From Pseudomonadales bacterium (GTDB lineage: Bacteria; Pseudomonadota; Gammaproteobacteria; Pseudomonadales; Azotimanducaceae), in contig JANQKS010000070.1 in the NCBI GenBank assembly GCA_028281005.1, positions 1 to 50,079 of the forward strand: 50,079 nt of DNA. Reading direction: 5' to 3'. Position 1 is the first letter of the stretch. Each line of letters starts with the position of its first letter. Under the pieces are notes generated by a model. It did not search any database. It saw nothing but the letters and a program-made list of their open reading frames with translations, and was not told where the DNA came from. Made by a program: the position numbers and the translations under genes. Of the stretch, positions 2 through 48,093 are shown piece by piece.

Positions 2-1216
2 ACCTACACGCTGCCGGGCAGTGCCATCGTCACTTACACTTACGATGCGGTGGGTAATCGTACGAGTGAGACTCAATCTGGTGTGACGCAAACGCACTCG
101 TACGGTACGACAGACAATCGACTGATCAATCAAGCCGGTGCTGTAGTCGGCCACGATGGCGCAGGCAATATCATCAGTGACCAGTCTGGCGTCAGGACGT
201 TTACTTACAATCATCACAATCGCTTGACCAGTGTTGTGGATAATTCAGTGACAGCCGGCACCTATACCTATAACGGCCTGGGACAGCGGGTGCGGAAAGT
301 TGCTGGTAGCAGTGATACGGACTACGTATACGATCTGAGTGGACAGCTTATTGGTGAGTATGCCAATGGGACACTGATCAGAGAATACATCTACCTGGAT
401 GGTGTGCCCCTTGCGCAAGTAGATGCCAGTCAATTAATTTACTTACATGCGGATCATCTCGGCACGCCGAGAGTGGGTACCGATACTAACGCAACGATTG
501 TATGGCGGTGGGACAGTGATCCGTTTGGAGAAGCTGCACCAGACGAAGACCCAGATGGAGACATGAACAATGTCACAGTTAACCTACGGTTCCCTGGGCA
601 GTATGTGGATATGGAAAGTGGGCATTACTACAACTACTTCAGAACGTACGATCCGAGCATAGGCAGATATACACAGAGTGATCCGATTGGATTGGAGGGC
701 GGACTTAATACCTACGCCTACGTTGGGGGGAACCCGCTTCGCTTTGTCGATCCTTATGGTCTATGTATTTTGGGTGGATCGCTGGTTAGTTGTGTCGAGC
801 CATATAGGGATCGTGCTCGGCAATCCGGAGCGTCCGCGGGGGCGGCTGCGGGAGCCGTTGCGGGAGGCGTCTTAGCTGGTGGATTGTGTTCGCCATCAGG
901 ACCTGGTGCATTGGTTTGCACGGCTGGCGGGGTTGTAGGCGGTGGCCTAGCGGGCGCGGCGGTAGGGGATGCGCTTGGTAATTTAACAGGTACTGTTGGT
1001 GGCGCGATTGCTTGTAGTATCGGTGGGGAGGATCAAGCCGAAAAAGAAGCTCGGTGCGATCATCAATACTACGAAGTCGACATCCCGGTGTGTAGGGCCA
1101 TAGCAAGAACTCGAGGAAGCCAAGCCGCGGAACGATGTTATGCAACAGCCGCTGCTAGATATGCCGCATGCCTGAACGATGACCCGATTCCTGATTTGGA
1201 TACTTACAACAATTAG
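2..1216 (+). CDS. Rhs-family polymorphic toxin, C-terminal part (5' end outside window)
   Basis: The reading frame is open from base 2, and the YTYD-type Rhs repeat before the GTG at 50 shows that the gene starts upstream of the window. It holds the last YD repeats and the full RHS-associated core: YDLSGQLIGEY, HADHLGTPR, WRWDSDPFG, the RYTQSDPIGL motif and the boundary motif DPYGL near residue 238 (counted from base 50). In this family the core forms a shell holding the variable C-terminal toxin, usually delivered by T6SS or a similar route. The tail here (about 150 residues) has a Gly/Ala-rich, probably membrane-active stretch and then a Cys-containing end (CDHQYY, CRAIAR, CYATAAARYAACL) of a type common in Rhs tails. 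No enzymatic motif is recognised. A small gene two bases downstream is the likely immunity partner. Confidence 0.85.
   Translation, partial: TYTLPGSAIVTYTYDAVGNRTSETQSGVTQTHSYGTTDNRLINQAGAVVGHDGAGNIISDQSGVRTFTYNHHNRLTSVVDNSVTAGTYTYNGLGQRVRKVAGSSDTDYVYDLSGQLIGEYANGTLIREYIYLDGVPLAQVDASQLIYLHADHLGTPRVGTDTNATIVWRWDSDPFGEAAPDEDPDGDMNNVTVNLRFPGQYVDMESGHYYNYFRTYDPSIGRYTQSDPIGLEGGLNTYAYVGGNPLRFVDPYGLCILGGSLVSCVEPYRDRARQSGASAGAAAGAVAGGVLAGGLCSPSGPGALVCTAGGVVGGGLAGAAVGDALGNLTGTVGGAIACSIGGEDQAEKEARCDHQYYEVDIPVCRAIARTRGSQAAERCYATAAARYAACLNDDPIPDLDTYNN
246..764 (+). repeat. Rhs core direct repeat, copy 1
   Basis: This is the block from GTYTYN to the DPYGL boundary. It recurs at 1835-2353 at a constant offset of 1589 bases with only scattered substitutions and no length change that I can see. 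Such shared cores allow recombination to swap toxin tips. Confidence 0.85.
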
Positions 1217-1218
1217 CT

Positions 1219-1500
1219 ATGGAAGTTTGGGTTGAAATAGCAGGCTTTGTTCGTGATAAAGAAGATTTGACGCCATTTTCACTAATAGTTGAAATGCCTG
1301 TTAAAACGAAGGGGTACGAGGAGTTCTCCTGCACGGTTCGAGCGCCAGCCTTACTGGAGAACGAGAAGCAAATATTTGGTGCTACTGAGGAACAAGCGCA
1401 GGAGTTGGCTGCCGAGTTTGTTCGTTCTCTGCTAAAGCGTATTGAATTGGTTGACAAAGATGGCAATCTACTCCCGCTGGTTATTCCACGGATTGCTTGA
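1219..1500 (+). CDS. Putative immunity protein for the first Rhs tip
   Basis: This 93-residue soluble acidic protein starts two bases after the rhs stop, in the usual position of an Rhs immunity gene. It begins MEVWVEIAG and has an alpha/beta pattern, with a helix rich in Ala/Glu around residues 55-70 (ATEEQAQELAAEFVRSLLKR). It resembles small uncharacterised proteins of the DUF6968 kind, but that assignment is from memory and weak. There is no signal peptide, so it would act in the cytoplasm. The immunity role rests on position, not on any recognised motif. Confidence 0.55.
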   Translation: MEVWVEIAGFVRDKEDLTPFSLIVEMPVKTKGYEEFSCTVRAPALLENEKQIFGATEEQAQELAAEFVRSLLKRIELVDKDGNLLPLVIPRIA

Positions 1501-1553
1501 AGTGCGCTGATACGAATTTGGTATCCCCATGACATTGTGCCAAACGCTTGCGT

Positions 1554-1700
1554 TTACCCGCGACCATCTACGTCTTCATGGATCTGTTGAAGGCTCGATG
1601 TAACAAGTAAGGGCACACACACGTCGTAGTCATTCAGCAAGATGCTGGATTCGTTGCTGACCATATCGATCAGCTTGCCATCGAACCCCCACTTTGTCAT
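1554..1700 (-). other. Unrecognised 48-codon open frame in the spacer between Rhs cassettes
   Basis: The 334-base spacer between the first immunity gene and the second Rhs core has no forward gene. On the minus strand a frame beginning MTKWGFDGKLIDMV reads like real protein, and the frame stays open for about a dozen codons upstream of this ATG. It may be the leftover of a displaced immunity gene or of a mobile element. No family is recognised and expression is doubtful. Confidence 0.2.
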
Positions 1701-1764
1701 GGCGGGTTTTACAATCTGTGTGGCTGTGGAGGCGATATGCGCGAGCTAGCGCCGCTTAGAGGTT

Positions 1765-2784
1765 TTGTTGGGGGTTGCGCGGTGTCCCCCACGGAGTAAG
1801 CACTTTAAACGCCTCTATGGGGCTCCAGCTGGCTCAGTGACGGTCGGCACCTATACCTACAACGCGCTGGGGCAGCGGGTGCGGAAAGTTGCTGGTAGCA
1901 GTGATACGGACTACGTCTACGATCTGAGTGGACAGCTTATTGGTGAGTATGCCAACGGGACATTGATCAGAGAGTACATCTACATGGATGGTGTCCCCCT
2001 TGCGCAAGTAGATGCCAGTCGATTAATTTACTTACATGCGGATCATCTCGGCACGCCGAGAGTGGGTACGGATACTAACGCGACGATTGTATGGCGATGG
2101 GACAGCGATCCGTTTGGTTCAGCAGCGCCGAATGAAGATCCGGATGGAGACATGAACAATGTCACAGTCAATCTGCGATTCCCTGGGCAGTATGCAGATA
2201 TGGAAAGCGGGCATCATTACAACTACTTCAGATCCTACGACCCATCCATTGGAAGATACACCCAGTCTGATCCGATTGGGTTATCGGGTGGGTTGAACCG
2301 CTATACCTATGTTTACGACAACCCGGTTAACTTTTTTGATCCATATGGTTTAAGGGTACGGGTACGTTGTGTAAATGTCGTTGGATTTGCAAAGCACTGT
2401 TATGTGGAAGTGGAACCCGATAACGGTGACGATCGTACTTCTTGGGTATTGCACGGAGATGCAAGAGACCATCGCAGTCAAGCTGGCTGGATAGTCCAAG
2501 ACGACGGATTCGATACTGGCGGGGCGGAGGGTGAATGGAACGAATCCTGCGGCGTTGACGATTGCGTTGAAGAAGCAGTTCGGGAGTATCCAAACGGTTC
2601 TGTTTATCGATTCTTCCGAGGACCAAACAGCAATACCTTTGCTGCCTACGTAGCTGCCAAATGCGGATTAAAAAAGGCTCGAGGATGGGCACCAGGGTGG
2701 CGGGCTAATCCGCCCGCGCAACAGGAAGGGCCGCAGTATCCACCAGGTAGTCAACCCTACTCTGTGGGGCATGCGAGAAGGTGA
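1765..2784 (+). CDS. Displaced Rhs C-terminal tip 2 (orphan rhs-CT)
   Basis: The protein-like part begins about residue 24 with SVTVGTYTYNALGQ, where the frame becomes homologous to the upstream Rhs. The first 23 residues of the frame are not Rhs-like, so this is a displaced tip without its own N-terminus, probably silent unless recombined onto the full rhs. The core ends at FFDPYGL. The tail of about 145 residues is new compared with tip 1. It contains CYVEVEP, WVLHGDARDH, a C..DCV pair and the motif FRGPNSNTFAAYVAAKCGL. The PNSNTF string also occurs in NlpC/P60- or DUF3750-like peptidase-fold proteins, so a papain-like activity is a guess. The stop overlaps the start of the next gene by GTGA, which points to translational coupling. 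Confidence 0.7.
   Translation: MLGVARCPPRSKHFKRLYGAPAGSVTVGTYTYNALGQRVRKVAGSSDTDYVYDLSGQLIGEYANGTLIREYIYMDGVPLAQVDASRLIYLHADHLGTPRVGTDTNATIVWRWDSDPFGSAAPNEDPDGDMNNVTVNLRFPGQYADMESGHHYNYFRSYDPSIGRYTQSDPIGLSGGLNRYTYVYDNPVNFFDPYGLRVRVRCVNVVGFAKHCYVEVEPDNGDDRTSWVLHGDARDHRSQAGWIVQDDGFDTGGAEGEWNESCGVDDCVEEAVREYPNGSVYRFFRGPNSNTFAAYVAAKCGLKKARGWAPGWRANPPAQQEGPQYPPGSQPYSVGHARR
1835..2353 (+). repeat. Rhs core direct repeat, copy 2
   Basis: This is the second copy of the block at 246-764. The two copies are nearly identical at nucleotide level across HADHLGTPR and WRWDSDPFG, and diverge sharply right after the DPYGL boundary codons. Confidence 0.85.
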
Positions 2785-3116
2785 GAGCGTCGATGTTCTT
2801 GTTGTTACTCACGCTTCTCTATGTATCGGGTTGTTCACACTCCAGGGCTGCACCGTGGGTCGAAGAATTGAGATTGCAATTGCAGTGCGGGATGACACTG
2901 GGAGAAGTCTCCGCGAAAAGTCCTATTACGCCGGAGCACCTGAAACAAGAGGACGGCAGAGATGTCTATCTTGTTCAATCTTCAAGCTTCTCAAATAGAA
3001 CCGATCTGCTGCTCTATTTTCACGATTCGGGCTTAGAAGCTACAAGAATTGGTTTGGGCGTCCCCCTGTCTACGGAAATCGAATACGATGAGATAAAAAA
3101 TCTCTGTGGAACATAA
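2781..3116 (+). CDS. Small lipoprotein, putative immunity protein for Rhs tip 2
   Basis: This 111-residue protein has a GTG start inside the rhs-tip stop (GTGA overlap). It opens with a lipoprotein signal, MRASMFLLLLTLLYVSGC, whose lipobox is VSGC, so it should be anchored in the envelope. The mature part has two more Cys (LQCGMTLGEV near residue 36 and the C-terminal LCGT). If it is the immunity protein, its location suggests that the tip-2 toxin acts in the periplasm or at the membrane. The end overlaps the next Rhs fragment by eleven bases in another frame. It has no recognised family. Confidence 0.6.
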   Translation: MRASMFLLLLTLLYVSGCSHSRAAPWVEELRLQLQCGMTLGEVSAKSPITPEHLKQEDGRDVYLVQSSSFSNRTDLLLYFHDSGLEATRIGLGVPLSTEIEYDEIKNLCGT

Positions 3117-3561
3117 GGGAGATTACAACTACTTCAGGACTTATGACCCGAGCATAGGGAGATACACCCAAAGCGATCCGATTGGGTTAGCGGGCGGACT
3201 CAACACTTACGCATACGTTGAGTCCAACCCCGTTCTGTTTACTGACTTGTTGGGGTTGGCGTCGGATTCCTTTACAAAGGCGGTAGCAAGCACAGCGGCA
3301 AGCGGAGACACAAGGGCACTAAAGAATCTTCTGCAAGCTGCACCCAGAGCGCAAAAAGACGCGATCAAACGAGCACTTGATGAACTAAACAGTAGTGCAG
3401 ACGACTTTATCGCGCAGAATTGCGAGGGATCGGTTCGTGGGGAGTTTCCAGGCCAATTCCTGAACAAGTCGCTTGCAGAGATAAGGAAGGCGGCACGATC
3501 TGGTGATCGACTGGCTCGGAAAGCTGACAAACTACTCAAAGACGGTCGTTTTAGGAAGTAG
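3106..3561 (+). CDS. Displaced Rhs C-terminal tip 3 (short orphan rhs-CT)
   Basis: Only the last 45 or so residues of the core remain (YNYFRTYDPSIGRYTQSDP through VLFTDLLGL), joined to a tail of about 100 residues. The only possible start (GTG at 3106) lies within the preceding immunity gene, so this is an orphan tip rather than a normally expressed gene. The tail ends EFPGQFLNKSLAEI, then ARKADKLLKDGRFRK, a compact basic C-terminus of the kind seen in Rhs and CDI toxin tips with proposed nuclease activity. I cannot name the toxin class. Its boundary motif LLGL departs from the usual DPYGL. A DUF4288-like gene follows after six bases. Confidence 0.65.
   Translation: MEHKGDYNYFRTYDPSIGRYTQSDPIGLAGGLNTYAYVESNPVLFTDLLGLASDSFTKAVASTAASGDTRALKNLLQAAPRAQKDAIKRALDELNSSADDFIAQNCEGSVRGEFPGQFLNKSLAEIRKAARSGDRLARKADKLLKDGRFRK
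3124..3259 (+). repeat. Rhs core direct repeat, copy 3 (shortened)
   Basis: Only the end of the core, from YNYFRTYDPSIGRY to the boundary, is present and matches 629-764. Nothing upstream of it resembles Rhs, which marks the left recombination edge of this cassette. Confidence 0.75.
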
Positions 3562-14151: not shown

Positions 14152-16023
14152 TTACCAGTTAATGCGCAGCGACATCTCCCAGACGTCCGCATCGAAGTGT
14201 TCGATATCGTCTTCCGCATAGTCGATATTGCGATAACCGAAATCCAGGATGTAGTCCTGCGGCAAGGTGACAGAGACCCCTGCTCGAATGTCATCCCTTT
14301 CGACGTCAAAACTGCCGTCGTTGTCATACGCGCGAAAGCTGCCCTGCAGCCGCCATCTGTCATCGAGCGCGTAGGAGAGCGTTGCATCCCAGAAGCTGGA
14401 ATTCGCTTCGTAGCGGATGAGAAACAGATCCTGGCGGAACGCGAGTATGTCACCCTGCACCACCTGGTCGATTTCATGCTCGATATCGACCAGCGCAACG
14501 CCGGCGCTCGCCTGCAGCCGTTCGCCCGCATACGCAACACGGACATCAACCTGGTCCGTGGTCGACTCCCAGCCTGAGTTGTCGTTCTCAAAGTCCGTGC
14601 GGCTCAAAATAGCAGTCAGGCTGACGCCGTTGTCGAAGCGATAACTGCCACGCAGCCTGTATCTCTGCGAGTCCGTGGAGGAGGCCAGCGTATACGGGTC
14701 ATCTATGCGTCGTTCTTCCGCGCTCAGGGTAAGCCGCGCCCGCGGATTGGGCTGATAGTTGGCCTGCAGGTAGTAACCGTTGGCATCGGTGTCTTCGTCG
14801 CTCGCTAAACTGGCGCCGCTAGCAGTCTCAATAAAATCCACCTCGCGCTTCTCCATATGCCAGCCGAGGGTCAGCCGCAGATCATCAATTGCCTCAACTG
14901 TCGCCGTGAGATCCACTCCCAGATTGTCGATCTCCCAGCTACTGGCGGTTCTAACACCGTCAAAAAAGAGATCACCGTCCTGGGCGGTAGCGTAACGCCG
15001 CAGTTTCGCGTCCAGGCGCCAGCGTTTGGTCAGCGTGTAGCCCGCGCTGACATCGACGAGCGCGGTGTCCCGGTCGATGGCGCCGGCACCGCCTTCCGCC
15101 CGCGCAAACGGGGCACCTGTAAAATCGAGGCCCTGGGAGGATTCGTCCACGTTAATGTCCAGCTCCAAGTCAATGTCGCGGACAGCAACGGCCAGCTCCA
15201 GCTTGTCCGTCGGCCGCGCCAGCACATTGAGGGCATGTTCCCGTGCGTCACTGTCATAAGGTTGGCGCAGCAGAAAGAAATCCAATTCCGTCGGTTCGGC
15301 GGGTTCGCTGCCTAGAGAGAAGCCCGGCAGCAACCAGCGCATATCGTTCTCGTGGTGCTGCCAGCTTTCGCTGACCACCACCGTCACCCGATCCCAGGCG
15401 TACTCGAACCCGACTGTCGCCTCGCGGAAGCGTTCGTCGACAGGCTGCTCCATCTCGAACTCTTCACGCTCCACGTCAACCACCGTAGTGCTGTCACCCT
15501 CTTTGTCATAGCGGTGAAAGTCGAGGGTCAGGGACGAACGCTTGGACAGATCCAACGCCAGCGTCGCTTGTTCCCGCGTCCGCTCGAAATCGAATTGGTG
15601 GAAATCGCCGCCGGTTGAGCTTTCGACACTGGCATCCTTAGGCCGTATGAGGATGTCTTCATAAAAATAATCGGACTGCTGGCGCTGATAAGAGAAGCGA
15701 TACTTGTCGTATTTGCGCACCTCGGCGGCCATCCGCTCGAAAGGCTCGCCGCCAATACCGTAGGCCTCCAAGTTTACCAGATCCGGTGTGTTGCCGGTTC
15801 TTTCCTCGGGGCTGAAGCGCGCCTGCAGGCCGAAAACGCGGGCGCCGTCATCCAGATTGACGTACTGCTTGTACTTCGCCTCGTCGCCTTGCACGTCTGT
15901 CTCGCGAGCACCCACTTCGATGTGACCGCTGAAGCCGTCAGCTGCAACCGCCGTCTCGGCCAGCGTGGAAAGCATCAGGACCGTGCACAGTTGCCGCAAC
16001 ATGCCCGCCCCCCCTTTGCTCAT
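14152..16023 (-). CDS. MtrB/PioB-family outer-membrane beta-barrel of an electron conduit
   Basis: The start is ATG 16023, which shares one base with the cytochrome stop (TGATG), giving 623 residues. The signal peptide ends ...TLAETAVA before ADGFSGHIEVG. The mature protein is a long series of amphipathic beta strands with Asp/Glu/Arg-rich turns and ends in aromatic Trp (SLRINW), as expected for a barrel inserted by BAM. MtrB/PioB proteins sheathe a decaheme cytochrome to carry electrons through the outer membrane. I see no CxxC near the N-terminus, unlike some Shewanella MtrB proteins. The tight coupling to a DmsE-type decaheme cytochrome supports the call. It is the last gene of the four-gene operon. 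Confidence 0.82.
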   Translation of the reverse strand: MSKGGAGMLRQLCTVLMLSTLAETAVAADGFSGHIEVGARETDVQGDEAKYKQYVNLDDGARVFGLQARFSPEERTGNTPDLVNLEAYGIGGEPFERMAAEVRKYDKYRFSYQRQQSDYFYEDILIRPKDASVESSTGGDFHQFDFERTREQATLALDLSKRSSLTLDFHRYDKEGDSTTVVDVEREEFEMEQPVDERFREATVGFEYAWDRVTVVVSESWQHHENDMRWLLPGFSLGSEPAEPTELDFFLLRQPYDSDAREHALNVLARPTDKLELAVAVRDIDLELDINVDESSQGLDFTGAPFARAEGGAGAIDRDTALVDVSAGYTLTKRWRLDAKLRRYATAQDGDLFFDGVRTASSWEIDNLGVDLTATVEAIDDLRLTLGWHMEKREVDFIETASGASLASDEDTDANGYYLQANYQPNPRARLTLSAEERRIDDPYTLASSTDSQRYRLRGSYRFDNGVSLTAILSRTDFENDNSGWESTTDQVDVRVAYAGERLQASAGVALVDIEHEIDQVVQGDILAFRQDLFLIRYEANSSFWDATLSYALDDRWRLQGSFRAYDNDGSFDVERDDIRAGVSVTLPQDYILDFGYRNIDYAEDDIEHFDADVWEMSLRINW

Positions 16024-16883
16024 CAGCGAAGAAAATTGCGGTCGAGGTTCGACCCGTGAATGGTCACGTGGCAGTTGGTGCACACAGTGTCCGTGCCGAA
16101 ACGCGGTGCACCCGCCGGCGCAAATCCCACATGAAACTGCGGTACGGCGGCATGGCAGGTGTAGCACAAAGCCCCGTTGTCCTGATGCGTCAGCATGTGC
16201 CGATTGGGACTGCCATGCGGCACATGACAAGCCTCACAACCATCCACCCGGCTGGCACCGTGCTCAAATACAAACGGCCCGGCTTTGTCAGCGTGGCAAT
16301 CGCGACAGATTTCCTGCTGAAATCCGCCAAGGCGCATGCCCTGGCCGACATCATGAGCATCGTGGCAGGACAAGCAGGATACCGCACCTTGGGCCAATCG
16401 ATGCCCTTCGTTGAAGCTGAACTGGGTAAAGATCTCCTGATGACAGCTGTAGCAGGCGGCCGATGCGTCATCCACATCGCGGAACTCCGAGGGCAACGGC
16501 GCCTTTTGCGGCACTTTGTGCACGCTATGACAACTTAAACAGGATAGCCCTGCTTGGCTATGCACACTGCTGCCCTGATGGGTTTCTTGGTGGCAGGATG
16601 CACAGACGGCATTGACCTCCGTCGACGAGTCATCGCGAAACGCACGGATGTGTGCGGGATCGGTGGGTGCGGTGGGATGGGCTACGCCTTCGCCATGACA
16701 TGCGGCGCATGAGGCATCTGTCAGGCCGCCATCCACCAGCGCCCGCCCATGCGGGGTATCGGCGAAACGCTGCACCACATCTGCATGACAGGCGGTGCAG
16801 GGCACCGCTGATTCGCCGAAGGCGTGTGCCCATTGTGTCAGTAACAACAGCACCAGGAAAGCAGCTGCAAGACCCTTGCTCAT
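16023..16883 (-). CDS. Periplasmic decaheme c-type cytochrome (DmsE/MtrA-like)
   Basis: This 286-residue protein, counted from ATG 16883, has a Sec signal MSKGLAAAFLVLLLLTQWAHA. It has exactly ten CxxCH heme sites, at residues 29, 59, 94, 115, 144, 170, 193, 216, 240 and 268. Many additional His residues can serve as distal ligands. Length, heme number and the GFQQEICRDCHADK region match the DmsE/MtrA family, which fills the MtrB barrel and passes electrons outward. A TTG at 16898 is an alternative start. The gene overlaps the barrel gene by one base and follows the b5-like gene closely, so the products should be made together. Confidence 0.9.
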   Translation of the reverse strand: MSKGLAAAFLVLLLLTQWAHAFGESAVPCTACHADVVQRFADTPHGRALVDGGLTDASCAACHGEGVAHPTAPTDPAHIRAFRDDSSTEVNAVCASCHQETHQGSSVHSQAGLSCLSCHSVHKVPQKAPLPSEFRDVDDASAACYSCHQEIFTQFSFNEGHRLAQGAVSCLSCHDAHDVGQGMRLGGFQQEICRDCHADKAGPFVFEHGASRVDGCEACHVPHGSPNRHMLTHQDNGALCYTCHAAVPQFHVGFAPAGAPRFGTDTVCTNCHVTIHGSNLDRNFLR

Positions 16884-16931
16884 ATTGGAATGATCCAAGG
16901 TTAAGGTTGTTCCTACTATCCGGGTAAACCC

Positions 16932-17300
16932 TTATTCGGACTGTTCGAGTACACCCACTCGGTACTGCGGCAAAAGCGCGTCTGCGGCGGGACTGTGAGG
17001 GCGGCCGTAGCCTTTGGTACGATATTGTTGGGTTGCATCTTTGCCGCACCAATCTGTCATCACCACCGGCGGGGCTGGATGCCGAGGTATGTAAGTAGTG
17101 AAGTCGTAGACCACACCTTCGATGGCCATCCAGCAGTCATCAGTGCCAGCATGACGGGCGAGCTCTGCAGGGCTAATGCTAATGACCCGTTGTTCGGTGA
17201 CGCTGTCAGCCACGCCATCCGTGGCGAGCACGGCATAGGCCCAGATCGACACTACACTGGACCAGAAAGCCGCAAAGCAAATCAGCATAAAACGCTTCAT
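16932..17300 (-). CDS. Exported cytochrome b5-like heme protein
   Basis: This 122-residue protein has an N-terminal membrane or signal segment (MKRFMLICFAAFWSSVVSIW) and a cytochrome b5-like domain. The hallmark order is present: ISPAELARH, then DCWMAIEGVVYDFTTYIPRHP with the first heme His, then GKDATQQYRTKGYGRPHSP with the second His, then ALLPQYRVGVLEQ. The usual HPGG is replaced by HPAPP. It overlaps the flavocytochrome gene by ATGA. It probably carries electrons in the periplasm between the flavocytochrome and the decaheme cytochrome, which is inference from position. Confidence 0.8.
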   Translation of the reverse strand: MKRFMLICFAAFWSSVVSIWAYAVLATDGVADSVTEQRVISISPAELARHAGTDDCWMAIEGVVYDFTTYIPRHPAPPVVMTDWCGKDATQQYRTKGYGRPHSPAADALLPQYRVGVLEQSE

Positions 17301-18592
17301 AACAGATTAAACTCCTCCATATGGATGTGACGGCGCGACACGCCCTCACCGGTCAAAATTGTCTCAGCCAGGTTGAGCAGGCCCGATGGACCGCAGACGT
17401 AGCATACACGCTGCCTGTAATCGGCAGTGCAGCCTTCCAGAAAAGACGCGCTGAGCGCTCCCTGCTCGGCAAAATAGTGCGGATGAACCACAAAGCCTGG
17501 CTGGCGGGCCGCGATGTGCTCGAGCTCGGCCAGATAGTAGGCTCTGCTAGTATCGTTGGCGCAGTAGACGAGGTGCACGTCGACGCTTGCCGATTGAGCT
17601 GTAAAGGCCCGGGCAACGGACACAAAAGGTGTGATACCGATACCGCCACCGATCCATAACGCAGCGCCTTCATGCTGCGGCGGCACAAACCGACCGTAGG
17701 GGCCCTCTACAGTAGCTAAGGTGCCTTCTTTGACCTGCATGAGTGCGGCGCTGGCATCCCCCAGCTCCTTTATGGCGATGCGCAGATCAGGTTCATGCGG
17801 GGCGCTGACCAACGAGTAAGGATGTTCCTCACCCCGGCCAACCGGTAGGCTGGGATCAAGCGGCGTGAAGTAGACAAATTGGCCCGGGTCGTACTCTAGC
17901 GGCGGTCCCTCCAGGGTAATTTCTACCACCCGTGGCGCCAGTGCGTTAACCCGCGAGATGCGGTATTGACGTCGGGACAGCCATCTGGACAGCAGCAGCC
18001 GCCACAGGAAAGCGGCAGCGGTGACGGCGGCGAGCACCCCCCAGACCCAGCCCGCGGCTGCAGGTTTGAGCAGCCCGGCCAAGGCCAATGCATGCAACAA
18101 TGCCAGTATCAACACCGCCCCGGAGAAACGATGCAGCAGCTTCCAACGCTGATAATGGGGTGCTCCGAAGAAGGAAAATGAAGGCGCCAGGAATAGCATC
18201 ATGAACAGCAGCGCGGCCCATCCCGACCAGACGGTCCAGGCGTCAAGCGACGGCAACAGGGTGGCCAGCACAGCCTGCGGGCCAGCGGGGACGTTGGCCA
18301 ACGCGAGCAGAGGCGGATGCATCAGCAGCAAAACGAAACTGAAGGCCCCGAGCCAGTGGTGCATTCGCCACAGCGACAATAATCCGCCGAGTGCAAGATC
18401 AAAACGCGGCAGGCGTGCGGACAACGCCATCGCCAGTAGAAACCAGGCGAAACCAACCAGGCCGGCTGCACGGCCTAACCATCGCAGCCACGCAGCCGCG
18501 TCAGCCGGCGCACCTGCGTACAAATCCGCCGCCACAACGGCCAGCGGCCACGCGACCAGGGTGAATGTAACCAACCGTACCAGCGTAAACAT
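17297..18592 (-). CDS. Ferric-reductase-like transmembrane flavocytochrome (FRE/NOX fold)
   Basis: This 431-residue protein has an N-terminal half of about six membrane helices. His pairs for b hemes lie in WRMHHWLGAFSFVLLLMHP and WKLLHRFSGAVLILALLHAL. The C-terminal half is a ferredoxin-NADP-reductase module with the FAD motif EEHPYSLVSAP, the nucleotide motif GGGIGITPF and CGPSG. It would oxidise cytoplasmic NAD(P)H and move electrons across the inner membrane. It is the first gene of the operon with b5-like, decaheme and barrel genes, so it probably supplies that conduit in place of CymA. The ATG follows GAGGGCAC. Confidence 0.88.
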   Translation of the reverse strand: MFTLVRLVTFTLVAWPLAVVAADLYAGAPADAAAWLRWLGRAAGLVGFAWFLLAMALSARLPRFDLALGGLLSLWRMHHWLGAFSFVLLLMHPPLLALANVPAGPQAVLATLLPSLDAWTVWSGWAALLFMMLFLAPSFSFFGAPHYQRWKLLHRFSGAVLILALLHALALAGLLKPAAAGWVWGVLAAVTAAAFLWRLLLSRWLSRRQYRISRVNALAPRVVEITLEGPPLEYDPGQFVYFTPLDPSLPVGRGEEHPYSLVSAPHEPDLRIAIKELGDASAALMQVKEGTLATVEGPYGRFVPPQHEGAALWIGGGIGITPFVSVARAFTAQSASVDVHLVYCANDTSRAYYLAELEHIAARQPGFVVHPHYFAEQGALSASFLEGCTADYRQRVCYVCGPSGLLNLAETILTGEGVSRRHIHMEEFNLL

Positions 18593-22051: not shown

Positions 22052-24739
22052 CTAGATTAAGTTAGGCCGTAACCACTTTTCAGCCTCATCGGCCGACATC
22101 CCCTTACGCTTGGCATAGTCTGCAACCTGGTCCATGCCGATTTTGCCAAGGCCAAAGTAGCGCGCCTCTGGGTGGGCGAAGTACCAACCGCTCACCGATG
22201 CTGCGGGCGCCATGGCGAAGTTGTCAGTTAAGCAACTGCCAATGTTTGCTTCGACATCTAGAAGCTCCCATAAGGTGCCTTTCTCTGTGTGTTCGGGGCA
22301 GGCGGGATACCCGGGCGCTGGTCGTATGCCCTGATACGCTTCTTTGATTAAAGCTTCATTGCTGAGTTCTTCTGACGGTGCGTAACCCCAATAGGTTTTG
22401 CGAATTTTTTCATGCAGCAATTCGGCAAAGGCCTCGGCAAAACGATCCGCCAGCGCTTTGACCATAATTGCGTTGTAGTCATCATGACTAGACTCGAATG
22501 TGTCAGCCATTGTCTCTGCGCCGAAACAACTCACGGCGAATGCACCCATGTAATCGCTAACACCGGAAGCTTTCGGCGCGACAAAATCTGCCAGCGATCG
22601 ATAGGGATTGGTTGCTGGACGATCCGCCTGTTGTCTCAGGTGATGAAGCGTTGCCAGGGGCTGACTGCGGCTTTCGTCGGCATAGATTTCTGTGCTGTCG
22701 TTAGCAATTCCATTAGCAGGGAACAACCCAAAAACGGCAGAACACTGGAAGCTCTTCTGCTCTACAATACTGCGCAACAACGCCTGGGCGTCGTTGTAGA
22801 GTGCGGTGGCCTCATCACCCACGACGTCGTCGTCTAAAATGTTTGGGTACTTACCGGCCAGCTGCCAAGATTTGAAGAAAGGCGTCCAGTCGAATCGCTC
22901 GATGATTTCGCTCAGCGGATAGTCGTGCAGGACGTGCACTCCGATCTGGTTAGGCGTGACGCTCCGATAGCTCTGCCAATCGAACTCAACCGCGTTTGCG
23001 CGGGCTAGACTGAGCGGTGAGACTGTTTTGTTCGCCCGGCGTTTGGCATTGTTTTCGCGTACTTTGGTGTATTCGCAACGCACGTCTTCGGCGAAGCGGT
23101 CCCTGCCATCCCCAGCCAACGCGGTCGCAACAGGGACCGATTTTGAGGCATCGAGAACGTGCACGACCGCCCCCGTGTACTCCGGCTCTATTTTCACTGC
23201 GGTATGCACTTTTGAGGTAGTTGCACCGCCAATGAGCAGCGGGACATCCATGTTACGCTCGTGCATCATCTGCGCAACCGTCACCATCTCATCCAACGAA
23301 GGGGTGATGAGCCCAGACAGTCCAATGATATCTGCGTTGACGGCTTGTGCTTCGTCGAGAATTTTTTCTGGCGGAACCATCACCCCTAGATCAATGACTT
23401 TGAAGTTGTTGCAGGAAAGGACGACGCCAACGATGTTCTTGCCGATATCGTGAACATCGCCTTTCACGGTGGCCATGATAATGGTGCCGTTGTTTTGTGA
23501 TTGGTTGCCGGAGGCCTTTTTCTCTTCCTCAATATAAGGCAGTAGATAAGCCACCGCCTTTTTCATCACGCGGGCGCTTTTCACAACCTGTGGCAAGAAC
23601 ATTTTTCCGGCACCAAACAAATCACCGACCACGTTCATGCCTACCATCAGGGGGCCTTCGATCACCTCAATGGTTTTGTCGGTATGCTGCCGCGCTTCTT
23701 CTGCGTCTTGCTCAACGAATTCCGCTATCCCTTTGACCAGAGCGTGAGTGATGCGTTCTTGAAGATCACCCTCTCGCCATTTGAGCTTGTCTGTTTCCTT
23801 GGCGCCCGCTGCTTGGTCTTTGACTTGCTCGGCAAAATCGATCAGACGTTCGGCTGCATCCTCGCGTCTATTTAAGACGACGTCTTCAACACGCTCTAAC
23901 AGGTCTTTGGGTATGTCATCGTAGACGGTGAGCATTCCGGCGTTCACGATGCCCATATCCATGCCGTGGTTGATCGCGTGATAGAGGAACACAGAATGCA
24001 TCGCTTCGCGCACAACGTTGTTGCCGCGGAAAGAGAACGACACGTTAGAAACCCCTCCGGACACTTTGGCCCCGGGTAGGTTACCTTTGATCCATTGCGT
24101 GGCGTTGAAGAAGTCGACCGCATAGTGATCGTGTTCAGGAATACCGGTGGCGATGGGGAAGATGTTGGGATCAAAGACAATATCTTGGGGCGGAAAGCCT
24201 ATGCCCACCAACAATTCATAAGAACGTTTGCAGATATCAATGCGTCTTTGATAGGTGTCCGCTTGGCCTTGTTCATCAAACGCCATAACCACCACTGCGG
24301 CGCCGTACATCAAGATCTTTCTGGCGTGCTGTATAAACTCTTCTTCTCCTTCTTTTAAGGAGATGGAGTTAACGATGGCTTTACCTTGAACGCATTGCAG
24401 TCCCGCTTCTATGATTTCGAATTTGGAAGAGTCGATCATAAAAGGCACGCGGGCGATGGAAGGCTCTGCGCTCAGCAGATTCAAATAGCGACGCATAGCC
24501 GCAACGCCATCGAGCATGGCGTCATCCATATTGATGTCTATGATCTGCGCACCGTCCTCGACCTGGACGCGTGATATCTCCACGGCCTCTTCGTAGTTTT
24601 CTTCACCGATCAGGCGCGCAAATTTACGCGAACCAGTGACGTTGGCGCGCTCTCCGACATTCACGAAGCCAGTACTGTCGCTCAATATGAGCGGCTCCAG
24701 ACCGCTCAATATCATGTCGGGGATAGATCCACTGGACAT
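22052..24739 (-). CDS. metH: Methionine synthase, folate-, cobalamin- and SAM-binding part (split MetH)
   Basis: The start is ATG 24739, sharing one base with the stop of the preceding gene (TGATG), giving 895 residues. Order of domains: pterin-binding ([16 protein letters not shown] at about 25-40 to 280), cobalamin cap (about 325-415), B12-binding with GDVHDIGKN (base-off ligand H430) plus [13 protein letters not shown] and [13 protein letters not shown], then the activation domain with [15 protein letters not shown] near 820. Everything except the homocysteine module is present. With the upstream gene it equals a normal MetH of about 1,236 residues. It transfers the methyl group from methyltetrahydrofolate through cobalamin to homocysteine. 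Confidence 0.93.
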
Positions 24740-25764
24740 CAGGCTGCTTGGTCTTTGTCGTTCAGTTTGCGCGGCGGATATCTGTCGGCCAACTGTCGTA
24801 AAGCAGCCATGTGTGCCGGTGTCGACCCACAGCAACCTCCAAGAATATTGATGTGACCACCCGCAACAAATGGCTCCAATTCGGCAACCATCTCTTCAGG
24901 GGTTTGGTCGTACTCACCAAACTCGTTCGGCAAACCTGCGTTCGGGTGTGCCGTGGTCAGCAGGGTTGAAACCTTATCAAGGCGCTTAATGTAGGGAAGC
25001 ATATCTCGAGCGCCGGTGGAGCAATTCAAGCCGATACTGAACAGTTGGCCATGCATCATGGAGACATAGAAGGCTTCTATGGTTTGTCCGGATAGAGTGC
25101 GTCCGCTTGCGTCCGTGATCGTGCCGGAAACCATCAGTGGGGCTGTTCTACCCTGCATCTGCATGGCTTCTTTCGCTCCAAAAATAGCGGCTTTGGCGTT
25201 CAGCGTGTCGAACACCGTCTCGATCATGAGAAGATCTGCGCCACCTTCGAGTAGGGCACTGCATGCCTGTTTGTAGGCGGTTCTCAAATCGTCAAAACTT
25301 ACCAGACGTTTGCCAGGATCTTCCACGTCGGGAGATATTGAAGCAGTGCGGTTGGTTGGACCCAGTGAACCAATCACATAACGCGGCTGATCCGGCGTCC
25401 TGTCTGACCATTCATCTGCTGCCCGGCGGGCACACCGCGCAGCGTGAAAGTTGATGTCATATACATGGTCTTCCAATTGATAGTCTGCTTGAGCAATGGT
25501 TGTGCCATTAAACGAGTTGGTCGTCGCAAAATCTGAGCCGGCTTCAAAATAGTCGCTGTGGATACCCTCGATAATCTCTGGACGGGTGATCGACAGCAGG
25601 TCATTGTCACCTTTGAGTGGCAGTGGGTGATTGTGAAAGTGATCACCGCGAAAATCATCTTCGACTAAATTGTGGCGCTGAATCATGGTACCCATAGCAC
25701 CATCGAGCAACATAATGCGTTTGGAAAGCGTTTCCGTAAGCTGTTTCGAGATGTCGCTTGACAT
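24739..25764 (-). CDS. metH: Methionine synthase, homocysteine-binding part (split MetH)
   Basis: This 341-residue Hcy-methyltransferase barrel has all three zinc Cys residues: C248 in [11 protein letters not shown] and C311/C312 in [13 protein letters not shown]. It begins [29 protein letters not shown] as a normal MetH N-terminus. Instead of a linker into the pterin domain it stops after KLNDKDQAA, and the next gene starts on the same bases. The clean overlap and full set of catalytic residues argue for a genuine two-gene enzyme rather than a frameshift. No cobalamin, SAM or SAH riboswitch was recognised in the 280 bases upstream. Confidence 0.92.
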
Positions 25765-31860: not shown

Positions 31861-31990
31861 CGTCGGAATCTCCCGGTACCGCGCAGGCAGGTTGTTTGTG
31901 TTTTTGTGAAAGACGAGTCTAACGCAGTCAACGCCACATGTTCGGGACACTAAGCTAAGATGAAGATTGAATTTGCCAACGGAGGCAGTG

Positions 31991-32737
31991 ATGCAATTTC
32001 TTATTCCACGCCTGATCCTTATTGCCATGGGTTTGTCCGTCGTCAATTTCGCTGCCTGTGGCAGCGATCCACAACAGCAGGCAAGCTCACAAGCGCCGGA
32101 AGTCGCCACCGAAACTATCGCTGAACACATGAATGAACACTTCATTCAGGCGAAGCAAATTGAAGCGGCAATTATTCGCGGTGAACTGCAAGACAGCAAA
32201 GCAGCCGCTCAATGGATGGCGGAACATCAACCTGTAGAGGGTTTACCGCAAGGTTGGGAACCTTATGTCGCTGCTATGCAGGGTGCAGCACAAGCGGTCG
32301 TCGAAGCGCAGAACATTGAAACGGCCGCGGCTAACCTGGCCGCCATGGCAAAAGCCTGCGGTGATTGCCACGCGGCGATGGGTGCGCAAATTCAGCCAGC
32401 ACCAGCAACGCCGCCGCCAGCTGATACAGGTACGGTGTCTCACATGATTGCCCACCTGTGGGCGGCGGAACGAATGTGGGAAGGTTTGACCACACCCTCG
32501 GACGAAGCTTGGGTAAACGGGGTTGAAATGCTGGCAAGCGCCCCGTTGCACACCGATGACTTAACAGAGCATGCGGAAATGCGGGGTGATCTAGAGACGA
32601 TGGAACACCGGGTGCATAATCTCGCGACCCAAGGTCGCGAAATCGTAGGCTTAGACGCCCGCGCCGAGCTTTACGGCCGCTTCCTCGCAACTTGCGGGTC
32701 CTGCCACCAGACGCTGGGCCAGGGTGGCCCGCAGTAG
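31991..32737 (+). CDS. Diheme c-type cytochrome lipoprotein
   Basis: The start is ATG 31991, with GGAGG five bases upstream, giving 248 residues. A lipoprotein-type signal ends NFAAC (C23). Two heme sites are present: CGDCH at 123-127 and CGSCH at 235-239, each following a helical region rich in Ala, Glu and His, which suggests two four-helix, cytochrome-c-prime-like halves. It probably shuttles electrons in the envelope. It stands alone between divergent and convergent neighbours and is 14 kb from the electron-conduit operon, so a link to that is speculative. Confidence 0.75.
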   Translation: MQFLIPRLILIAMGLSVVNFAACGSDPQQQASSQAPEVATETIAEHMNEHFIQAKQIEAAIIRGELQDSKAAAQWMAEHQPVEGLPQGWEPYVAAMQGAAQAVVEAQNIETAAANLAAMAKACGDCHAAMGAQIQPAPATPPPADTGTVSHMIAHLWAAERMWEGLTTPSDEAWVNGVEMLASAPLHTDDLTEHAEMRGDLETMEHRVHNLATQGREIVGLDARAELYGRFLATCGSCHQTLGQGGPQ

Positions 32738-45959: not shown

Positions 45960-47879
45960 TCAACGTAAGTGGCTGACGTCTGCTTCGACGTGGTTGATGA
46001 AGGCGTCAATGGACATGACCCCTAAATCTTCGCCGCGCTGCGTGCGCACGGCCAATTCTCTGTTCGCGACTTCCCGATCGCCCACCACCAATAAATAGGG
46101 GATGGCCTGTAGGGTGTGTTCGCGAATCTTAAAACCAACTTTTTCATTACGCAGATCAGAGATCACGCGAAGACCGGCAGATTTCAACTGTTCTTCCACT
46201 GCGTTTACATAGGCGTCTTGTTTGTCGGTGATGGTCATGACCGCTGCCTGCACGGGCGCTAACCATACCGGGAATTTGCCGACGTAATGCTCAATTAAGA
46301 TGCCGATGAAACGTTCCAGCGAGCCGAATAAGGCCCGGTGTAGCATCACAGGGCGCTTGTCCCGGCTGCCGCTTTCATCCACGTAAGAAATATCAAAACG
46401 CTCCGGCAGGTTCATGTCCACCTGCAAAGTGCCGCATTGCCAGTCTCGGCCAATGGCGTCGCGCAATACAAACTCCAGTTTGGGCCCGTAAAACGCACCT
46501 TCGCCCGGATACAGGACATACTCCAGACCCATGACGTCCAGCGCATTGCTGAGTGCACCTTCGAGTTTGTCCCACACGGCGTCGCTGCCGATGCGTTTTT
46601 CCGGCCGGGTGGACAGTTTGATGACCACGTCTTCAAAACCAAAGTCTTTGTAGATGTCCAAAACCAGGGCGACCACGTCGATACACTCCTGCTCCATCTG
46701 CTCTTCGGTGCAATAGATGTGTGCGTCGTCCTGAGTGAAGTGACGCACCCGCATCAAACCGTGCAGCGCGCCGGAGGGTTCGTAACGGTGGACTTTGCCA
46801 AATTCAGCCATGCGCAACGGCAGGTCACGATAGCTTTTCAGGCCTTGCGCAAACATGGAGACTGAGCCGGGACAGTTCATGGGTTTTAACGCAAACACAC
46901 GCGCATCTTCGGTTTGAGTTGAAAACATGTTTTCGCGGTAGTTGAACCAATGCCCGGATGTTTCCCATAAGCTACGATCCATCACATCCGGTGTATTCAC
47001 TTCGACGTAACCGGCCTCTTCCTGCCGCTTGCGCATGTATTCCAGCAGCTGCAGGAATAGGGTCCATCCCTTTGGATGCCAAAACACGGAACCTGGGGCT
47101 TCATCACTGAAGTGGAACAGATCAAGTTGCCGGCCGAGTTTGCGGTGATCGCGTTTTTCGGCCTCTTCCAGGCGGTGCAGATGGGCTTTTAGCTCTTTCT
47201 TGTCGCGCCAAGCGGTGCCATAAATACGCTGCAACATTTCATTGTCTGAATCGCCCCGCCAATAAGCGCCGGCCAGCTTCATCAGTTTAAACGCTTTGGG
47301 CAGCTTGCCGGTGCTGGGTAGGTGCGGTCCGCGACATACGTCGAACCAGTCACCTTGGCGATACACCGAAACCTCTTCACCTGCGGGGATGATGTCCTCA
47401 ATGATCTCGACTTTGTAGTTTTCGCCGATATCGCCAAATGTGCGTTTGGCCTGCTCCCGCTCCCAAACTTCCCGTTGTATGGGTAGGTCGCGAGCAACAA
47501 TTTCCTGCATGCGTTTTTCGATTTTCTCGAAATCATCCGGAGTAAATGGCTCTTGCCTTGCGAAGTCGTAGTAGAAGCCGTCCTCAATCGCAGGCCCGAT
47601 GGTCACTTGCGTACCCGGAAACAGTTCTTGTACCGCCTGCGCCATGATGTGCGCGGCGTCATGGCGAATGAGCTCCAGCGCTTCGTCACTTTTTGTGGTG
47701 ATGATGGCCAGTTCGGCGTCTTGTTGAATTAAAAATGAGGTGTCGACCAACTCGCCATCCACTTTTCCGGCCAGCGCTGCTTTGGCCAAGCCGGCACCGA
47801 TATCCGCGGCAACGTCATGCACAGTGATGGCTTGATCGTAAGACCGTGTAGAACCGTCGGGGAGGGTAATTTGAGGCAT
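45960..47879 (-). CDS. thrS: Threonyl-tRNA synthetase
   Basis: From ATG 47879 the enzyme is 639 residues, the normal length. Domain order: TGS ([16 protein letters not shown]), editing/SAD domain ([38 protein letters not shown]), class II core with motif 2 ([14 protein letters not shown]) and motif 3 ([20 protein letters not shown]), then the anticodon-binding domain. The catalytic zinc ligands Cys (MNCPGS), His (RVRHF) and His (MLHRAL) are present. It charges tRNA-Thr. In most gammaproteobacteria the housekeeping thrS precedes infC. Here it precedes folE2, so it could be a second copy, though no Zur-box was found upstream. Confidence 0.95.
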
Positions 47880-48093
47880 GTACAAACTCTCTGTCAGTGG
47901 CGACCCCAACCAAAGGCCGCGTGGTTACTTATCAAACATCTCGAGTATCGAGAGGCGCTGAGAAAGGCGCGCAGTATAGGGACTTCGTCACGCAAACGCA
48001 CCTGCTACGGGCCATCGCGCTGCGGGGCTCCGCACCGATTTTGGGTGCCTATGGTATAAAGTTGCGGGTCAGACTCTGGGGTGAAGCCTAACC

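Follow-up and report, generated by a model that had tools for sequence, protein, structure and literature searches.

In the Mtr pathways, as far as the literature accessible to us describes them, the wire that leads electrons through the outer membrane is fed from the quinone pool. Two-part porin-cytochrome conduits without MtrC are also known, DmsEF being one of them. In MtrAB/MtrCAB of Shewanella (6r2q) a ten-haem cytochrome stands beside a 26-strand barrel, PioAB and MtoAB are two-part conduits lacking MtrC (PMC5566968, in the part available), and a survey of MtrCAB loci names CymA, NetBCD and MtoC as inner-membrane donors, the words “ferric reductase” not occurring in its main text as available (PMC8805035). 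Prokaryotic NOX, bacterial FRE and MsrQ-like systems have a membrane flavocytochrome architecture for which NAD(P)H input has been proposed or shown; in the accessible parts of two papers on them (PMC8238504, PMC5676040) they feed O2, MsrP or flavinylated FMN_bind proteins, and no outer-membrane wire. Here we analyze a four-gene operon in a stretch of 50,079 nucleotides (the whole of which is called the window below) from a Pseudomonadales bacterium of the Azotimanducaceae (assembly GCA_028281005.1, contig JANQKS010000070.1, positions 1 to 50,079). In our judgment, drawn from its domains, haem ligands and barrel fold, from repeated linkage and from the lack of a NapC/CymA or MtrC match in the genome, this operon probably constitutes a self-contained, quinone-independent conduit by which electrons of cytoplasmic NAD(P)H would reach the cell surface. 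Its four genes are:

17297..18592, minus strand: FRE, a ferric-reductase/NOX-type membrane flavocytochrome of 431 amino acids (Pfam, ligands, PDB)
16932..17300, minus strand: b5, an exported cytochrome b5-like protein of 122 amino acids (Pfam, PDB, alignment)
16023..16898, minus strand: DECA, an exported ten-haem c-type cytochrome of the MtrA/DmsE kind (CxxCH count, TIGR03508, PDB); the start is 16883 if the ATG is used
14152..16023, minus strand: BARREL, a divergent MtrB/PioB-type outer-membrane beta-barrel of 623 amino acids (PF11854, profile, fold)

The original prediction, made from the letters of the window, had spoken of four tightly overlapping genes. This holds for FRE and b5, which share 4 bp, and for the DECA stop and the BARREL ATG, which share 1 bp, but not for b5 and DECA, which are separated by a gap of about 33-48 bp. 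The four products it named, a membrane flavoprotein, a b5-like protein, a ten-CxxCH cytochrome and a barrel, were confirmed by Pfam, PDB, motif counts and coordinates, and it was also right that no MtrC-type or DMSO-type gene adjoins the operon, whose flanks are a major facilitator superfamily-type transporter (PF13347) and a 149-amino-acid protein without a Pfam match over the cut-off. Neither flanking gene encodes a DMSO-type molybdoenzyme (DmsA was not searched for in the remaining genome). Likewise, a Pfam scan of the four operon proteins and the two flanking ones detected no FMN_bind domain; the MsrQ-like pairing of a reductase with an FMN_bind protein is seen instead in a sister group of fusions described below.

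FRE exceeds the gathering cut-offs of PF01794 (Ferric_reduct, 37.3 bits), PF08022 (FAD_binding_8, 30.1 bits) and PF00175 (NAD_binding_1, 39.5 bits), the first lying N-terminally and the FAD and NAD(P) domains C-terminally. His78, His92, His154 and His167 are invariant among 19 aligned proteins and would be expected to form two pairs for two b-haems, a layout that, together with the FAD and NAD(P) domains, is that of the FRD superfamily (FRE/NOX). The best PDB chains in a sequence search were 8qta, 8qq7 and 8qt6, which we take to be the bacterial SpNOX. The b5 product scores 67.1 bits against Cyt-b5 (PF00173), over the cut-off, and begins with a hydrophobic segment that is either an anchor or a signal peptide. 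Its closest solved relative is 1cxy (E=7e-25, both cysteines aligned), presumably cytochrome b558 of Ectothiorhodospira vacuolata, with which it has in common two histidine ligands and a cysteine pair in an exported b5 domain: His74, His102, Cys56 and Cys85 are invariant in a 6-row alignment, and the motifs WCG and CWxxI recur in 86 and 84, respectively, of the 86 b5 loci introduced below.

DECA carries ten CxxCH motifs, and all ten together with ten further histidines are invariant among 14 aligned proteins, as would be expected of ten bis-histidine haems. Its best PDB match is 6r2q_A of the Mtr complex (E=2e-23), as is that of the DECA profile of the related islands described below, which places it with the exported ten-haem cytochromes of the MtrA/DmsE kind. 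The names given to DECA and BARREL in the original prediction are sound as to the MtrA/DmsE kind and as to MtrB/PioB (PF11854, 40.7 bits with a cut-off of 23), but not at the level of the formal models, DECA reaching 185 bits against TIGR03508, 7 bits below its cut-off of 192.2, and BARREL 31.8 bits against TIGR03509, far below its cut-off of 240. Because both scores fall short, we consider the two proteins divergent. The AlphaFold model of BARREL, obtained with a 13-row alignment (mean predicted local distance difference test score, pLDDT, 74; predicted template-modelling score 0.69), has 26 strands and a short helix that separates the first strand from the second. MtrB likewise forms a barrel of 26 strands and has a small helix at this place (PMC7198977, in the part available). 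The best PDB fold match of the model is 6r2q_B (E 1.4e-16, template-modelling (TM) score 0.69 by query length); the runner-up by E-value, a siderophore receptor, has a TM score of 0.44, and the other 49 matches listed are all at or below 0.50. The 13-row profile, too, matches 6r2q_B alone (1.5e-107), so that the barrel, modelled by itself, is a 26-strand MtrB/PioB barrel encoded next to a decahaem gene. Four relatives' barrels were scanned with PF11854; those of L030, L034 and L074 scored 365-456 bits, and that of L017, the closest of the four to BARREL, 32.7.

A b5 alignment search over one genome per species (84,980 species) yielded 176 relatives, of which the best 80 were kept; with five loci from a second genome search and the window they make up the set of 86. 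Because all of these loci were collected via b5, they are uninformative on FRE without b5. In 84 of them FRE is the gene immediately upstream of b5, and the remaining two (L026 and L069) start at a contig edge. DECA is found within the locus in 14 of the 86, each time with a barrel gene adjoining it, and we call these loci islands (the window, L012, L017, L018, L021, L022, L027, L030, L032, L034, L043, L050, L056 and L074; L022 nearly duplicates L021, and L074 is carried by Wenzhouxiangella sediminis XDB06). Three gene orders occur among them, namely FRE-b5-DECA-BARREL as in the window (order A, four islands), DECA-BARREL-FRE-b5 (five islands), and FRE-b5 convergent with BARREL-DECA (five islands). 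Since 13 loci besides the window hold the same four parts, in three gene orders, the grouping exceeds chance, and chance adjacency was rejected; the co-occurrence on which the original prediction had staked itself is there. Loci whose FRE is more than 38% identical to that of the window were tabulated as gamma-type and the remainder as beta-type, a table that leaves out four loci without an FRE match over more than 300 residues. Among the 33 gamma-type loci, flanking sequence of 4.5 kb or more is available to the left and right in 22, and islands account for 13 of the 22; there is no island among the 49 beta-type loci, of which 29 are flanked to the same extent. Within its genus the operon appears to be accessory, because b5 is absent from all 36 other members searched.

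The islands also differ from other decahaem loci in what surrounds them. The comparison set consisted of 369 genomes of the class, searched with the DECA profile (alignment A2, E<=1e-20). An A2-type decahaem occurred in 25, two of which are islands (the window and G344), and the other 23 genomes gave 25 regions, each 3 to 20 kb long. A b5 match is missing from all 25, and one has an FRE-like match, which is weak (29% identity). Another open reading frame (ORF) with at least three CxxCH is present in 21 of the 25 (at least two CxxCH in 23). The 14 island stretches, which span 10.7 to 50 kb, contain no further ORF with three or more such motifs. The sole other window ORF with at least two CxxCH, at 31967-32737 on the plus strand and 13 kb from the operon, encodes an exported-looking protein of 256 amino acids with two such motifs.

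In the window's genome, which is 98.67% complete, neither PF03264 (NapC/CymA; positive in an E. coli control) nor TIGR03507 (MtrC/OmcA) found a match, and a partner of the NapC or MtrC family elsewhere in this genome was rejected. It shows neither the NapC/NirT-family quinol dehydrogenase of a CymA- or NapC-fed Mtr system nor the MtrC/OmcA surface cytochrome of MtrCAB, which speaks for the original prediction on the matter of partners, other quinol oxidases and terminal reductases not having been searched for. The DECA profile has one other match in the genome, other cytochromes not having been searched for; it is a cytochrome of 755 amino acids with eight CxxCH and a TPR C-terminal half, at L135:5457-7724 on contig C131. 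Across the 14 island genomes, PF03264 is without a match in ten, and in that of L056 its sole match is located within DECA of the island itself. With TIGR03507, one genome (that of L017) scores above the cut-off and two more give weak matches below it; besides its island, the L017 genome has another locus, where an MtrA-type decahaem is accompanied by genes of the MtrC and NapC families.

If the operon is indeed such a conduit, FRE would oxidise NAD(P)H on the cytoplasmic side, electrons would cross the inner membrane through its FAD and two b-haems to the exported b5, and b5 would pass them on to the ten c-haems of DECA and thus to the outside. We infer the direction of flow, the transfer itself and the docking and contacts between partners. 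Since FRE-b5 would take the place of CymA/NapC and the periplasmic shuttle of Mtr systems, quinones would be bypassed, much as the original prediction had it, and no check that we ran refuted its proposed path, which the sequence evidence supports. Outward flow through a NOX-type protein exports negative charge and lowers the membrane potential. Because flow through FRE would dissipate the potential in this way, no energy conservation is expected, a consequence absent from the original prediction that makes energy-conserving respiration unlikely. The likely role would rather be to vent reducing equivalents, regenerating NAD(P)+, or to reduce an extracellular oxidant, for which Fe(III), humics, flavin or O2 would be candidates.

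In its best profile and fold matches the operon resembles MtrAB/MtrCAB, from which it departs by having FRE-b5 within the operon, by its divergent DECA and by the genome's lack of MtrC- and CymA/NapC-family matches. PioAB/MtoAB and DmsEF, by comparison, use PioC, MtoD/CymA-like carriers or DMSO reductase, and none of them is described with FRE-b5 in the sources as far as accessible. MsrQ-like proteins with NAD-binding domains have been found clustered with FMN_bind proteins, the terms “MtrA” and “decaheme” not occurring in the available part of that paper (PMC8238504), and FRD-like HX13H motifs have been noted in inner-membrane proteins of PCC3 and PCC4, possibly linked to quinones (PMC5566968, in part). 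The arrangement goes unmentioned in the accessible portions of PMC5676040, PMC3591440 and PMC13390432. In the open-licence PMC literature, within the text available, we recognised no description of FRE-b5 feeding MtrAB; it may have been mentioned elsewhere.

How the two halves came together was examined on two trees. The DECA tree has 41 rows, comprising frames of 9-11 CxxCH and fewer than 430 amino acids and one incomplete PioA-like frame; L158 (truncated frame) and L137 (longer frame) were left out. On this tree the island label takes four changes (bootstrap 3-4), one change being forced if the starred branches alone are counted. Topology tests gave an approximately unbiased P value (p-AU) of 0.030 for all 14 islands as one clade and of 0.056 for 12 islands without the window and L017, whose DECA proteins pair on a long, divergent branch. 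Because the single-clade p-AU is low and the label needs four changes, several joinings are favoured, and a single origin with losses would be the less favoured history, though not firmly so. On the FRE tree, 14 islands set against nine full-flank non-islands take six changes, and gene order takes three.

Promoter sequences point to the conditions of use in some relatives. Upstream of nine of the ten DECA-led loci there is an FNR-like box matching TTGATNNNNATCAA at 8 or more of 10 positions (1.4 expected), and in five of the ten the match is at least 9/10 (0.2 expected); both promoters of L012 and of L027 carry a perfect box. Where FRE is the leading gene, 8/10 is reached in three of nine cases (1.35 expected). 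In order-A loci the seeming matches ahead of DECA resemble coding sequence of b5, and the final count excludes them. Because the boxes exceed expectation, low-oxygen control through these putative FNR boxes is likely for the ten DECA-led loci.

FRE-b5 is, however, also a module in its own right that often occurs without the wire and is sometimes fused to FMN_bind, which the original prediction had not noted. In L010, L081, L084, L088 and L095 the b5 behind the same kind of FRE is part of a fusion with at least one FMN_bind-type domain (PF04205 is over the cut-off in L010, L081 and L088 and weak in L095, at 17 bits; L084 was assigned by eye). The fused domain is an apparent alternative periplasmic acceptor, and an A2-type decahaem is present in none of these five genomes. 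By comparison, ten of the 14 genomes with a gamma-type locus that is unlinked and not known to be fused hold a decahaem elsewhere, two of the ten (L020 and L037) being labelled Elusimicrobia and lying outside the class. Fisher tests gave 9e-9 for these 10 of 14 against the class background of 25 of 369, and 5e-4 for 24 of 28 unfused against 0 of 5 fused, figures that ignore kinship and come from two decahaem searches with unequal E-value limits.

Several observations weigh against the conduit. None of the 49 beta-type loci has a decahaem nearby, and four of the 14 unlinked gamma-type genomes, those of L011, L013, L014 and L019 (by genome G424, G177, G418 for L014, and that of L019), are without an A2-type decahaem; that of L013 has only a 24-bit match, and the b5 of L014, interrupted by a contig end, is possibly a fusion. 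Because FRE-b5 occurs without a decahaem in loci of both types, it has further partners too. Most of the ten unlinked decahaem regions contain multihaem neighbours (tetrahaem, MtrC-like or dihaem), that of L024 having decahaem and barrel alone. PF03264 matches apart from DECA in three island genomes, strongly in those of L017 and L022 and over a short stretch (33.6 bits) in that of L021, and the absences are soft because several genomes are metagenome-assembled genomes of unstated completeness. The AlphaFold model of DECA is poor (pLDDT 50) and uninformative on structure, and the best FNR-like match of the window is 7/10, other order-A loci likewise lacking a good box. It is conceivable that FRE-b5 is a separate inner-membrane module with a periplasmic task, for instance that of reducing iron, a flavoprotein or some repair enzyme, and that the MtrAB-type pair is fed elsewhere and is a mere neighbour; the 72 of 86 b5 loci without DECA nearby (some of them incomplete), the FMN_bind fusions and the decahaems with multihaem neighbours of their own would all fit. 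We nevertheless hold this to be unlikely, given the linkage in 14 loci and three orders with repeated joinings or losses on two trees, the islands' freedom from other ORFs with three or more CxxCH, and the lack of a separate NapC match in 11 of the 14 island genomes.

The same parts might also be run inward, from an outside donor such as Fe(II) or a cathode through MtrAB and b5 to FRE and NAD(P)H, in the manner of uptake by PioAB/MtoAB, which MtrAB without MtrC resembles (PMC5566968, in the part available). The FNR-like boxes in relatives, which point to low-oxygen use, speak against this. So do the energetics, since electrons of such donors have to go uphill to reduce NAD(P)+, and the membrane potential opposes inward flow through a NOX-type protein, and we rate an inward conduit as very improbable. 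The least probable of the readings considered is that of an NADPH-oxidase-like maker of superoxide or peroxide outside the cell, in which the wire would serve to relocate O2 reduction to the cell surface: FRE does belong to the same domain superfamily as NOX and has the presumed SpNOX chains as its best PDB matches, but the promoter boxes in relatives count against it, and a plain oxidase would have no use for the protein acceptor (b5) and the conduit that the operon encodes.

Further genes accompany FRE-b5 in other loci. A small exported-looking protein of about 106 amino acids (e.g., L031:8414-8734), a representative of which has no Pfam match, is encoded in beta-type loci; in 21 loci, most of them from betaproteobacteria and Rhodopseudomonas, its gene is no more than 8 kb away from FRE-b5. 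Seven loci, mostly of Wenzhouxiangella (L034, L043, L050, L061, L068, L070 and L074), have an arginine-deiminase-like gene, named by eye, in the vicinity of FRE-b5 or of the island.

As to the provenance of the contig, a binning contaminant was rejected: of 20 other genus members searched, seven have a threonyl-tRNA synthetase (ThrRS) with 83-92% identity to that of the contig, and the matches of the ThrRS, dksA and zur genes lie within one 20-kb stretch of G007. This ThrRS gene is at 45960-47909 of the window (minus strand); a second, about 40% identical ThrRS is encoded on another contig of the same genome, and the genus appears to have two ThrRS types. Counter to a genus-typical contig, MetH is only 56-60% identical to its longer genus matches. 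It is split into two overlapping frames on the minus strand, 22052-24835 (927 amino acids) and 24739-25764 (341 amino acids, named by eye). The genus matches are mostly frames of more than 1,000 amino acids, three of which share 68-74% identity, and MetH may be a natural split or an acquired gene. Several RHS/YD-repeat-like frames, named by eye, occupy 50-3561 at the contig start.

Taking the wider view, we regard as evenly balanced the proposition that these four genes form a mobile cartridge by which heterotrophic gammaproteobacteria discharge electrons from NAD(P)H straight to the exterior, needing neither quinones nor a surface cytochrome and paying with membrane potential. On this view the cartridge would act as an outlet of the extracellular “fermentation acceptor” sort, not as a respiratory chain, and would have been assembled repeatedly from FRE-b5 and MtrAB pairs of different ancestry. 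If the conduit is real, NAD(P)H would be coupled to an outer-membrane wire by two small proteins, a new metabolic role in which redox balance is kept without energy conservation. An orphan b5 family would thereby gain a partner, and extracellular electron export would gain a minimal, testable cartridge.

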